A stretch of 64,000 nt of DNA from Streptomyces carminius. Its GTDB lineage: Bacteria; Actinomycetota; Actinomycetes; Streptomycetales; Streptomycetaceae. Below are positions 52,893 through 56,609 of this stretch, piece after piece; positions within the stretch are counted from its first letter, which is position 1; every line of letters starts with the position of its first letter. The notes beneath the pieces were generated by a model. That model had not been told where the DNA came from. It was given only the letters and a program-made list of their open reading frames with translations, and ran no database searches. The DNA is taken from assembly GCF_002794255.1 (NCBI RefSeq), contig NZ_PGGW01000019.1, positions 126,501 through 190,500 on the forward strand. The letters are read 5' to 3'. The position numbers and the translations under genes were made by a program.

Positions 52893-53594
52893 CTACTGCC
52901 CGCTCTTCTCCCGCTTCTTCTCCTCCGCGTCCTCGATGACGGCCTCCGCCACCTGCCGCATGGACATCCGGCGGTCCATCGAGGTCTTCTGGATCCACCG
53001 GAAGGCGGCCGGCTCGGACAGCCCGTACTGCGTCTGCAGCAGCCCCTTGGCCCGGTCCACCAGCTTCCGCGTCTCCAGCCGCTGCGAGAGGTCCGCGACC
53101 TCCTCCGCCAGCACCCGCAGCTCGTTGAACCGCGACACCGCCATCTCGATCGCCGGCACGACGTCGCTCTTGCTGAACGGCTTCACCAGATACGCCATCG
53201 CCCCGGCGTCCCGGGCCCGCTCCACCAGCTCGCGCTGCGAGAAGGCGGTCAGCATCAGCACCGGGGCGATGGACTCCCCGGCGATCTGCTCGGCGGCCGA
53301 GATGCCGTCGAGCACGGGCATCTTCACGTCCAGGATCACCAGGTCCGGCCGGTGCTCCCGGGCCAGTTCCACGGCCGTCTGACCGTCCCCGGCCTCCCCT
53401 ACGACGCTGTAGCCCTCCTCCTCCAGCATCTCCTTGAGATCCAGACGGATCAGCGCCTCGTCCTCGGCGATGACGACACGTGTCGTCTGCGGCGGCACAT
53501 GCGCCCGCTCGACGGCGTCACCGCCGTCGGCGGGGGCGGGGGTGGTGACGGGCTCGGGGGTGGTGACGGGCTCGGGGGTGTCCGCGGTGCTCAC
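52893..53594 (-). CDS. ANTAR-domain response regulator (PdtaR-like)
   Basis: The 233-residue protein has a receiver domain (about 38-155) with acidic pocket EDE (44-46), phosphoacceptor Asp89 in VILDVKMP and Lys138 in LVKPF. A C-terminal ANTAR domain (about 165-225: AKGLLQTQYGLSEPAAFRWIQKTSM) follows. ANTAR proteins bind paired RNA hairpins and act as antiterminators; in mycobacteria PdtaR is activated by PdtaS. No sensor kinase is adjacent. The first 30 residues contain a repeated PEPVTT. GTG 53594 has GAGGAG four bases upstream. Confidence 0.92.
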   Translation of the reverse strand: MSTADTPEPVTTPEPVTTPAPADGGDAVERAHVPPQTTRVVIAEDEALIRLDLKEMLEEEGYSVVGEAGDGQTAVELAREHRPDLVILDVKMPVLDGISAAEQIAGESIAPVLMLTAFSQRELVERARDAGAMAYLVKPFSKSDVVPAIEMAVSRFNELRVLAEEVADLSQRLETRKLVDRAKGLLQTQYGLSEPAAFRWIQKTSMDRRMSMRQVAEAVIEDAEEKKREKSGQ

Positions 53595-53651
53595 TGGGCT
53601 CCTCGTGTTCCGGCCAGGTGGACCACATGAGCCTACCTAGCTCCTGTATGT

Positions 53652-53679
53652 TTGAGATACTGCGGTCATCCGCTAGCCT
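53652..53679 (+). promoter_or_regulatory. predicted promoter of the tRNA gene
   Basis: TTGAGA (53652-53657) and TAGCCT (53674-53679) are 16 bp apart. The expected start near 53686 gives a leader of about 8 bases before the mature tRNA, which is normal for tRNA genes. Confidence 0.65.
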
Positions 53680-53781
53680 TCATTTCGAAGGAAGCCCCGG
53701 TAGTCCAGCGGAAGAGACACGGTGCTCAAACCACCGACAGCGTGGGTTCGAATCCCACCCGGGGCACATTGCCTTCATTTC
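53676..53781 (+). repeat. 11-bp direct repeats flanking the tRNA gene
   Basis: GCCTTCATTTC occurs at 53676-53686 and again at 53771-53781, 95 bp apart, on either side of the tRNA. With a few mismatches the similarity continues about 7 bases further (AAG and AA shared). This could be the scar of a tandem tRNA duplication or an insertion footprint. Confidence 0.7.
53694..53766 (+). tRNA. tRNA with anticodon CAA (Leu by anticodon) but class I variable loop
   Basis: The 73-base sequence folds as a cloverleaf: acceptor stem GCCCCGG with CCGGGGC plus A73, a short D arm (GTC with GAC), anticodon stem CGGTG with CACCG around loop CTCAAAC (anticodon CAA at 53727-53729), and T arm GTGGG-TTCGAAT-CCCAC. 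No CCA is encoded. The variable loop is only ACAGC; genuine bacterial tRNA-Leu has a long variable arm. So the anticodon says Leu(TTG codons), while the body is class I. It is preceded by a plausible promoter. Confidence 0.85.
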
Positions 53782-53874: not shown

Positions 53875-54658
53875 ATGTACGACCTCCGCACTCGCAGGCG
53901 TGCACTTGCACTCGTCGAGCAGGGCCGCAGTCTCAACTCCGTCAGCAAGCAGACCGGAATATCCCGTTTCGCCATTCGCTCCTGGCAGACCCGGCTTGAG
54001 CCCCTCCCCCGCGTTTCCCGTGAGGCCGACTGCTTCCGTTGTGCGCCCGAGCCGTCCCTGCCGCCGAACGGCCCTGCCTACGCGTATCTTGCTCGGCCTC
54101 TACCTCGGCGACGGCTGTGTCAGCTCACATCCGCGGCGCGGCGGCCACTATCTGCGGATCGCCTGCGCGAACACCTGGCCCGGGCTGATCACCGAGTGCG
54201 CGGAGGCGATCACGGCCGTCCTCCCGGACCGAAGTTCCTGCCGCGTGCAGGCCGAGGGGTGCGTCATGGTCATCTCCTACGGCCACCACTGGCTCTGCCT
54301 GTTCCCCCAGCACGGTCCGGGCCGGAAGCACGAGCGGCGCATCGCCCTCGCCCCCTGGCAGCGAAAGGTCGTCAACCGGCACTCCTGGGAACTGCTCCGG
54401 GGACTCGTCCACTCCGACGGCTGCCGGATCACCAACTGGACCACGCGCCTGGTGGCGGGCGAGCGGAAACGCTACGAATACCCGAGGTACTTCTTCACCA
54501 ACACCTCCGGGGACATCGTCCGGCTCTACTGCGAGACCCTGGACCGCGTCGGAGTGGAGTGGAAGGCGGTGCGCCGCCCCGCCGGGGCGTACAACGTCTC
54601 CGTCGCCCGGCGGGCGTCCGTGGCGCTGATGGACGAGCACATCGGGCCGAAGCACTGA
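53875..54658 (+). pseudogene. HTH plus LAGLIDADG-like protein gene, broken by a one-base frameshift
   Basis: The first part (ATG 53875) reads MYDLRTRRRALALVEQG with a helix-turn-helix (about residues 8-38: GRSLNSVSKQTGISRFAIRSW) and continues to AYAYL. At 54088-54090 the frame changes: one extra T in TATCTTGCTCGG. Removing it joins AYAYL directly to LGLYLGDGC, a LAGLIDADG motif, and the reading then continues in the other frame (IACANTWPGLI, GLVHSDGCRITNW, RYEYPRYFFTN, a second LAGLIDADG-like half) to TGA 54658. I recall an intact Streptomyces family of this layout. So this is a pseudogene, a programmed frameshift or a sequencing error. It resembles homing-endonuclease relatives and sits next to a tRNA. 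Confidence 0.8.
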
Positions 54659-54789: not shown

Positions 54790-56223
54790 TCAGCGGAGGG
54801 TGTGCGCCTCGCCGATGTGGTGGACGCGCACCATGTTGGAGGTGCCGGGTGTCCCGGGCGGCGAGCCCGCGGTGATGATCACCTTGTCCCCCTCCTGACA
54901 GCGGCCGATCCGCAGCAGCAGTTCGTCCACCTGCTCCACCATCTCGTCGGTGCTCTCGACCATGGGACCGAGGAAGGTCTCCACTCCCCAGGTGAGGTTG
55001 AGCTGGGCGCGGGTGGCCGGGTCGGGGGTGAAGGCGAGGACGGGGACCGGTGAGCGGTAGCGGGACAGCCGCCGTACGGTGTCGCCGGACTGGGTGAAGG
55101 CGACGAGGAACTTGGCGCCGAGGAAGTCGCCCAGCTCGGCCGCCGCGCGGGCCACCGCGCCGCCCTGGGTGCGGGGCTTGTGGCTCTGGCTCAGCGGGGG
55201 CAGGCCCTTGGCGAGCATGTCCTCCTCGGCGGCGGCGACGATCCGGCCCATGGTCTTGACCGTCTCGATCGGGTACTTGCCGACGCTGGTCTCGCCGGAG
55301 AGCATCACGGCGTCGGTGCCGTCCATGACGGCGTTGGCCACGTCGGACGCCTCGGCGCGGGTGGGACGGGAGGAGTCGATCATCGAGTCGAGCATCTGGG
55401 TGGCGACGATGACCGGTTTGGCGTTGCGCCGCGCGAGCTTGACGGCGCGCTTCTGCACCAGCGGGACGGTCTGCAGGGGCATTTCGACGCCGAGGTCGCC
55501 GCGGGCGACCATCAATCCGTCGAACGCGGCGACGATCTCGTCGAGGTTCTCCACCGCCTGGGGCTTCTCGATCTTGGCTATGACGGGGAGGTGCCGCCCC
55601 TCCTCCTTCATCACCCGGTGGACGTCGGCTACGTCGCGTCCGCTGCGGACGAAGGAGAGGGCTATGACGTCCACGCCCGTGCGCAGGGCCCAGCGCAGGT
55701 CCTCGATGTCCTTGTCGGACAGGGCGGGCACGGAGACGGCGACGCCGGGGAGGTTGAGGCCCTTGTGGTCGGAGACCATGCCGCCCTCGGTGACCAGGGT
55801 GCGGACGCGGGGGCCGTCCACGGCGGTGACCCGCAGCGCGACCCGGCCGTCGTCGACGAGGATGGCCTCCCCGGGCCCGATGTCCTCGGCCAGGCCCTCG
55901 TAGGTGGTGCCGCACTGCTCGCGGTCGCCCTCGACGTTCTCGGTGGTGATGGTGAACTCGTCGCCGCGTTCGAGGAGTACGGGGCCCTCGCGGAACCGGC
56001 CGAGCCGGATCTTCGGCCCCTGGAGATCGGCGAGGATGCCGACGCTGCGGCCGGTGGCCTCGGACGCCCTGCGCACCCGGCGGTAGCGCTCCTCGTGCTC
56101 GGTATGGCTGCCGTGGCTGAGGTTGAGCCGGGCCACGTCCATGCCGGCTTCCACGAGCGTCTTGATCTGCTCGTACGAGTCGGTGGCCGGTCCGAGTGTG
56201 CAGACGATTTTCGCGCGGCGCAT
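54790..56223 (-). CDS. pyk: pyruvate kinase
   Basis: The 477-residue enzyme has MRRAKIVCTLGPATDSYEQI at the start, NLSHGSHTEH, MVARGDLGVE, the active-site IAKIEKPQAVEN and MLSGETSVGKYP, all standard pyruvate kinase. It converts phosphoenolpyruvate and ADP to pyruvate and ATP. ATG 56223 is the natural start; the longer in-frame reading to 56280 lacks a ribosome-binding site. Streptomyces generally has two pyk genes; I recall this position as the pyk2 locus. TTGACG occurs in the upstream region but without a good -10. Confidence 0.96.
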   Translation of the reverse strand: MRRAKIVCTLGPATDSYEQIKTLVEAGMDVARLNLSHGSHTEHEERYRRVRRASEATGRSVGILADLQGPKIRLGRFREGPVLLERGDEFTITTENVEGDREQCGTTYEGLAEDIGPGEAILVDDGRVALRVTAVDGPRVRTLVTEGGMVSDHKGLNLPGVAVSVPALSDKDIEDLRWALRTGVDVIALSFVRSGRDVADVHRVMKEEGRHLPVIAKIEKPQAVENLDEIVAAFDGLMVARGDLGVEMPLQTVPLVQKRAVKLARRNAKPVIVATQMLDSMIDSSRPTRAEASDVANAVMDGTDAVMLSGETSVGKYPIETVKTMGRIVAAAEEDMLAKGLPPLSQSHKPRTQGGAVARAAAELGDFLGAKFLVAFTQSGDTVRRLSRYRSPVPVLAFTPDPATRAQLNLTWGVETFLGPMVESTDEMVEQVDELLLRIGRCQEGDKVIITAGSPPGTPGTSNMVRVHHIGEAHTLR

Positions 56224-56609
56224 AAGGCCGACCCTATGACTTACCTGCGGGTAACGAGTTATGGGATACCCACTGTTCAACAGCCGTTGTCCGCTGGAGC
56301 GTCAACAAATCGCAAAGTGGGCGGCAGGCCGCTCGAATGAGCGCTTCGCCTTGCCGGAGAAACATGCCGGAGGCGTATTCCGGGGGAACGACGAGACCGG
56401 CCCGGCACCCCGGAGGCACTCTCCCCGGCACTGACGGGCAGCAGACACAGTCGGGGCGCCCCACCGTATGCATATTTGCCCTTGTCCGGCTTGTTCGCGG
56501 TGTTAAGGAGAGGAGAGTCCGCGCCCTGGAACCGATGCGTGTATGCCGCCGCCGAACTGTTAACTTCGGGCTACTGCCGGTGACGGACTCCGGCGGCACG
56601 GGAGGGTTC
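56224..56609. other. 386-bp divergent region between pyk and the three-gene cassette
   Basis: Around 56465-56575 it becomes markedly AT-richer than the surroundings (GCATATTTGCC, GTTAAGGAGAGGAGAG, GTTAACTT), as expected of a promoter region for the cassette. A strong purine-rich AAGGAGAGGAG near 56506 is not followed at the right distance by a start codon. Confidence 0.5.

Follow-up and report, generated by a model that had tools for sequence, protein, structure and literature searches.

A short-armed tRNA-Leu(CAA) that appears to alternate with a long-armed form at one Actinomycetes locus, in linkage with a LAGLIDADG homing-endonuclease-like gene

In phage T4, the GIY-YIG homing endonuclease SegB reportedly gives the T4 tRNA region an advantage in inheritance, by an account attributed to Brok-Volchanskaya in 2008. 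The locus analysed here is similar in that a free-standing gene of homing-endonuclease type lies beside a tRNA gene, the inheritance of which SegB is said to bias, but it differs in that the gene is of the LAGLIDADG kind, lies on a bacterial chromosome at one tRNA locus with alternative alleles, and has a putative activity. Deliberate-mistranslation tRNA systems also exist, with a dedicated second synthetase. In mycobacteria, according to one report, horizontally acquired tRNA clusters contain a short-looped tRNA-Leu(TAG) and HNH endonucleases (PMC6582537). The tRNA-Leu of phages and of these clusters has a short variable loop like that of the tRNA described here, but the cluster gene is an extra copy accompanied by HNH homing endonucleases, whereas here a single chromosomal gene apparently replaces the host isoacceptor and the neighbour is a LAGLIDADG gene with a helix-turn-helix part (PMC6582537). 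For E. coli tRNA-Leu, a review names as leucine elements A73, the A15-U48 pair, G18G19 and A20a, and describes the long arm as not crucial, variants without long arm and anticodon arm still being active (PMC9976931). By the same review, human mitochondrial tRNA-Leu(UUR) receives leucine although it has no long variable arm, its main elements being A73 and A14; in this it is like the present case, but it has a weak anticodon stem, whereas the tRNA described here is bacterial with a strong cloverleaf (PMC9976931). Searches of open-licence papers, judged by titles and abstract openings, brought up no description of the Streptomyces tRNA and none of a LAGLIDADG gene linked to tRNA-Leu.

The present study analyzes a tRNA gene at 53694-53766 on the forward strand of a 64,000-nucleotide stretch of Streptomyces carminius DNA, the whole of which is called the window below. 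It is the sole tRNA that ARAGORN finds in the window (53694-53767, +, called tRNA-Leu(CAA)), and its match to Rfam RF00005 (53694-53766, +; 55.5 bits, E 3.1e-9) exceeds the gathering score of 29. The variable loop, ACAGC, has 5 nt only and is thus not the long arm of class II; ARAGORN, RF00005 and the parsed structure all agree with an earlier note on this DNA, which had described a CAA anticodon with a class I variable loop. That note called the cloverleaf otherwise regular. The acceptor (7/7), anticodon (5/5) and T (5/5) stems are fully paired and position 73 is A; the D stem has three pairs (10-25, 11-24 and 12-23) and a C13.A22 mismatch. Pair 31-39 is intact and CCA is absent from the gene (GGGGCACAT). 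An allo-tRNA can be set aside since these are defined by an 8/4 or 9/3 acceptor/T-stem architecture, and that of the window tRNA is 7/5 (PMC7609411). The 5′ flank at 53640-53693 (+), a probable promoter and leader, is exchanged together with the tRNA; its approximate boundary is given by a drop in identity, at about -100 to -20, between sister genomes of different class and by the flanking sequences. In the flanks at three loci (L001, L089 and L146) the leader and trailer of the short gene look complementary by eye (AAGG...CCTT adjoining the acceptor stem), and this may produce a longer acceptor helix in the precursor of the short-armed gene.

The chromosomal surroundings are conserved. A divergent response regulator gene with an ANTAR domain by Pfam (52893-53594, -) is a marker of the locus: of 65 CAA loci left after de-duplication, 62 have it upstream of the tRNA gene (41/43 with the short form and 21/22 with the long form), and on the other side a pyruvate kinase gene (54790-56280, -; Pfam PK, 405.8 bits) also lies downstream in 54 of the 65 (37 short, 17 long); at the other loci the sequence ends too soon or the gene is missing. 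A further neighbour is a branched-chain amino-acid transporter set. With the conserved regulator, the transporter set and pyruvate kinase as flanks, the surroundings lend no support to a prophage or an integrated island. The suggestion of the earlier note that the tRNA was captured by an accessory element is partly apt: the locus is conserved and chromosomal, but its allele is exchanged between genomes, belongs to a type often met in phages, and has a homing-endonuclease-like gene linked to it.

There were 63 RF00005 matches in the genome from which the window derives, and the other leucine tRNAs among them (CAG, two GAG, UAA and UAG) are all class II. The earlier note had treated the gene as an extra CAA tRNA and had proposed a search of the same genome for a normal class II tRNA-Leu(CAA); none was found among the 63 matches or with two class II Leu(CAA) queries, so that the window tRNA is not an extra copy beside a normal one but the only Leu(CAA) found. 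Since the assembly consists of 71 contigs with 96.6% completeness and 6.3% contamination, a second Leu(CAA) is likely, but not certainly, missing. The UAA tRNA (L082) could share reading of UUG by wobble. Elsewhere in the genome (L061, G000 C61:130041-130400) there are two adjacent tRNA-like sequences, one called as Pro(CGG) and the other as Glu(CTC), which resemble each other closely and differ from the remaining Pro and Glu genes.

Comparison was extended to 187 distinct Leu(CAA) sequences, of which 185 could be parsed, the two dropped being long forms. The variable loop was 5 nt in 139 and 13–15 nt in 46, with no intermediates. A73, A14 and a 15-48 pair were present in all 139 short forms, the pair being A-U in 118 and G-C in 21, and the window tRNA belongs to this latter G15-C48 group. 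All stem pairs tested besides 31-39 and 13-22 were standard in 135 to 139 of the short forms, with compensatory changes; thus 10-25 and 11-24 were standard in 139/139 with four pair types each and 27-43 paired in 135/139, with 31-39 standard in merely 98/139. That 139 distinct sequences carry compensatory changes indicates that the short form is not a chance product, and on the same covariation a pseudogene was rejected. The short form has in common with bacterial class II tRNA-Leu(CAA) the anticodon, A73, A14, the 15-48 pair, the D-loop layout and an unpaired 13-22 (paired in 0/139 short and 0/46 long forms), as well as the locus and an apparent single copy. It differs in the length of the variable loop, in having U8-A9 (137/139) where the long form has U8-G9 (45/46), in having C at positions 12 and 13, which are both G in the long form, and in an unlike acceptor stem and upstream region.

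The earlier note presumed that bacterial tRNA-Leu needs the long arm, and proposed that this tRNA may be charged with another amino acid; the premise fails because the arm is dispensable in E. coli, where variants lacking it and the anticodon arm are active (PMC9976931). The window tRNA has the leucine set A73, A14, 15-48 pair, G18G19 and A20a (this last position assigned by counting back from the anticodon), with G15-C48 rather than the A15-U48 element given for E. coli (PMC9976931). The dinucleotide AG directly before position 22 occurs in 6 of 53 parsed tRNAs of the same genome, all six Leu; the unpaired 13-22 is less specific there, occurring also in Cys, 3/4 Ser and Tyr and not in Leu(UAG). 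Anticodon and body shape do conflict by textbook rules, and it could be argued from this that the tRNA carries something other than leucine, making the meaning of UUG ambiguous or reassigned in the manner of deliberate-mistranslation systems. Several observations make this very improbable. Among the tRNAs parsed in the genome, the leucine D-loop motif is confined to Leu, the other anticodons found on short-armed relatives, CAG (three loci of another family, sited elsewhere than the ANTAR/pyruvate kinase locus) and UAA (L108), are also leucine, and in a search confined to the LeuRS family one gene was over the family cut-off and no second. In addition, codons of the ANTAR and pyruvate kinase genes were scored by the commonest residue of their alignment column, and TTG fell in Leu-majority columns in 28/32 cases at short-form and 15/17 at long-form loci in the set of 65 (43 short, 22 long), and in 209/274 and 33/41, respectively, in a wider set of 231 (187 short, 44 long). 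TTG in non-Leu columns of the wider set amounted to 65/274 at short-form loci (V, I or M columns in 48 cases, other residues in 17) versus 8/41 at long-form loci. UUG appears to mean leucine in these genomes. From A73, A14, the 15-48 pair, G18G19, the Leu-only D-loop motif and the TTG columns, the window tRNA can most likely be taken as a genuine leucine tRNA. We think it very probable that the short-armed gene is a functional decoder of UUG, and the window tRNA itself would serve as the working UUG tRNA of its genome, charged by LeuRS. The UAA relative (L108:1500-1576, genome G009) has its CCA encoded.

The two forms seem to exclude each other within genomes. The Leu(CAA) anticodon and T-arm pattern matched 193 of 199 Streptomyces genomes, and among the matches listed (110 genomes) 68 had the short form, 41 the long form, none both, and one was without Leu(CAA), G134 having a Met-like match only among those listed. 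A second genome, G174, was a candidate holder of both forms and was rejected, ARAGORN finding no tRNA at its second match. For named loci, among the matches listed, 79/80 were called Leu(CAA), with the ANTAR gene within approximately 410 bp in 71 of the 79. In a class-wide sample of 138 Actinomycetes genomes, 117 had a pattern match, tRNA-like in 114, and typing by match length and string gave 68 short, 39 long and 7 of a second short type, with no genome having two kinds and more than one kind occurring within 8 of 33 families. The second short type was confined in this sample to family f21, in which loci L362-L367 have a short-armed Leu(CAA) (GGCCCGGTAGGC...) adjoining the ANTAR gene; the arm may have been lost there independently. 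Beyond Actinomycetes nearly all matches look long by string, short ones being seen in families f62, f49 and f64. Among named records the short form was present, irrespective of copy number, in Streptomyces, Mycobacterium, Bifidobacterium, Nocardioides, Micromonospora and Nanopelagicales. One record titled as a Bifidobacterium breve MAG (L283) has a Leu(CAA) resembling that of Nanopelagicales loci and is perhaps mis-binned.

Patterns detected in trees and alignments are consistent with exchange of the two forms in place. On the ANTAR tree (63 loci) there were 18 changes of tRNA class compared with 17.8 in shuffles, 11 of them forced by well-supported branches, and on the pyruvate kinase tree (52 loci) 15 compared with 13.9, nine forced. 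The tree of the unlinked LeuRS, from 30 genomes picked by hand and enriched for discordant sisters (one sequence being half-length), gave 10 changes compared with 10.4, all 10 forced. The tRNA class seems therefore to change along gene trees as if at random. Breakpoints were sought in ten pairs whose alleles differ (nine pairs join a short and a long form, and in one both are long) and in ten same-class pairs. The different-allele pairs were 92–100% identical at -200 to -150, fell in identity somewhere between -150 and -20, and were 40–73% identical in the tRNA; at +1,100 to +1,300 identity was 86–95% in five and near 47% in two, with gapped alignment in three. Same-class pairs had 64–100% identity in the tRNA, at least 86% in five of them. 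These identity profiles of sister pairs indicate that the upstream region and the tRNA are exchanged as one block with a downstream reach that varies. Trees and breakpoints together show allele exchange at the ANTAR/pyruvate kinase locus, with short- and long-armed tRNA-Leu(CAA) as interchangeable alleles at one Actinomycetes locus. Flanks of 600 bp contained no remnants of the other tRNA class, the best scores being no better than those of shuffled flanks.

Between the tRNA and pyruvate kinase is a LAGLIDADG homing-endonuclease-like gene (53875-54655, +) with a frameshift near 54090, possibly a sequencing error given that the assembly is a draft. The N-terminal, helix-turn-helix part (53875-54090, +) is 64% identical to an intact relative (L093), and the LAGLIDADG part lies in another frame (54089-54655, +), assigned by a match to profile A1 (E 4.1e-101), the Pfam matches of intact relatives and a modelled fold. 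Of the 65 CAA loci, 33 have an intact gene of about 260 residues (19 short, 14 long); it is broken at 9, only a remnant is left at 2, and at 21 it was not seen. The acidic residues of both LAGLIDADG motifs, D80 and D181, were invariant in 33/33 intact relatives, and all four intact relatives scanned reached Pfam PF14528 (LAGLIDADG_3), narrowly, at 22.5–24.9 bits with a cut-off of 22.5. A model of the L093 relative (pLDDT 88.9) had as its best PDB match by Foldseek the homing endonuclease I-Tsp061I (2dch, E 4.1e-8), with I-AniI and I-DmoI also matched, but some matches were to WhiA, which shares the fold and is a transcription factor, and fold alone is therefore no proof of cutting. NCBIfam gave no useful name for the gene, a PDB sequence search with the endonuclease profile had weak matches only (an unrelated HTH chain at E 0.0043 and a putative homing endonuclease at 0.013), and tblastn of the C-terminal frame against plasmids and phages gave no match. 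Relatives were found in 22 of the 138 class genomes, 19 beside tRNA-Leu(CAA), one beside tRNA-Leu(UAG) (G054) and two at contig edges; in G309 and G054 the relative is upstream of the tRNA in opposite orientation. At one locus (L089:1968-3539) two tandem endonuclease-like genes lie behind one short-armed tRNA-Leu(CAA).

The short-armed body is common among phages. There were 120 viral stretches chosen by a Leu(CAA) pattern in a search built so as to favour the short form, and by that construction 118 have a short Leu(CAA). In the same stretches the arm was also short in 36/45 Leu(UAG), 36/48 Leu(UAA), 14/26 Leu(GAG) and 9/16 Leu(CAG), and the long arm was kept in 93/94 Ser and 31/33 Tyr tRNAs. 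A D-arm and variable-loop motif links the window type to 102 of the 118 viral Leu(CAA). One viral short tRNA matched 140 phage records, and four of these records, from phages of Streptomyces, Rhodococcus and Corynebacterium, were examined: the tRNA-Leu at the match was 75–77 nt with anticodon CAA or UAG. Neither blastn of the window tRNA region against plasmids and phages nor tblastn of a viral endonuclease relative against phages gave a match. Four viral endonuclease relatives were found, all adjoining or overlapping tRNA-Leu genes, with two (L527 and L528) seemingly the same stretch; in viral stretch L416 a relative is next to a Leu(CAA) pattern match. Alleles of phage type may thus be taking the place of the host gene, with homing as a possible route. 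In one viral contig (L525:1936-2735) a complete short-armed tRNA-Leu(CAA) lies inside the endonuclease reading frame between the HTH and LAGLIDADG parts, and by eye an apparent 5′ part of a long-armed tRNA-Leu precedes that frame. Corynebacterium phage StAB (L531) has a short-armed tRNA-Leu(CAA) with an annotated HNH endonuclease 46 bases on.

Jointly, the explanation we favour, and consider fairly probable on genomic grounds, is that of a working UUG tRNA on a phage-common short-armed body, of interchangeable alleles at one locus, and of an accompanying LAGLIDADG gene. What moves the alleles is less firm. The endonuclease would cut the resident tRNA-Leu allele and recombination would then swap it, a role suggested by physical linkage and one that we judge evenly poised. 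Ordinary homologous recombination or phage transduction might instead swap two ancient alleles, the endonuclease being a passenger that settles near tRNA-Leu genes, and this has a real though less than even probability. Many loci of both classes lack the gene (15/43 short and 6/22 long; one of the short, L094, had just 115 bp downstream), and exchange may therefore be able to proceed without the endonuclease. Several short-form loci, by eye, have a terminator-like sequence in common with long-form loci, so that exchange can stop short of the endonuclease gene, and at L161 a long-form tRNA is joined to an endonuclease with the N-terminal part of type A. A passenger would not be expected from the finding that endonuclease clades follow tRNA class, with exceptions (6 changes versus 10.9 in shuffles, with 2/500 as low), nor from the presence of this family next to tRNA-Leu in viral contigs and even with no ANTAR match near, as at L358, outside the class, where a relative follows Leu(CAA). 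N-terminal types, assigned by eye, were associated with tRNA class but not strictly (short:long, 15:1 for type A and 4:13 for type B). If the endonuclease is indeed the driver, the system could be a natural form of cleave-and-rescue, in which a putative homing endonuclease attacks the sole host tRNA-Leu(CAA) and the cassette supplies a differently built, uncuttable one; we offer this tentatively, as somewhat doubtful. It would be the natural counterpart of engineered cleave-and-rescue drives. Loss of the arm and rapid change of the stems would then represent escape from cutting, and drive would explain the swaps of tRNA alleles across Actinomycetes, with phages as carriers.

The long arm, a defining trait of bacterial leucine tRNA, looks optional for what is apparently the only tRNA reading UUG in many Actinomycetes, 68 of the 114 class-sample genomes with a tRNA-like match, and what LeuRS reads can be tested on natural variants. 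Should the exchange be driven by homing, a selfish nuclease would be reshaping the machinery of the genetic code by replacing, and not by breaking, one of its pieces.
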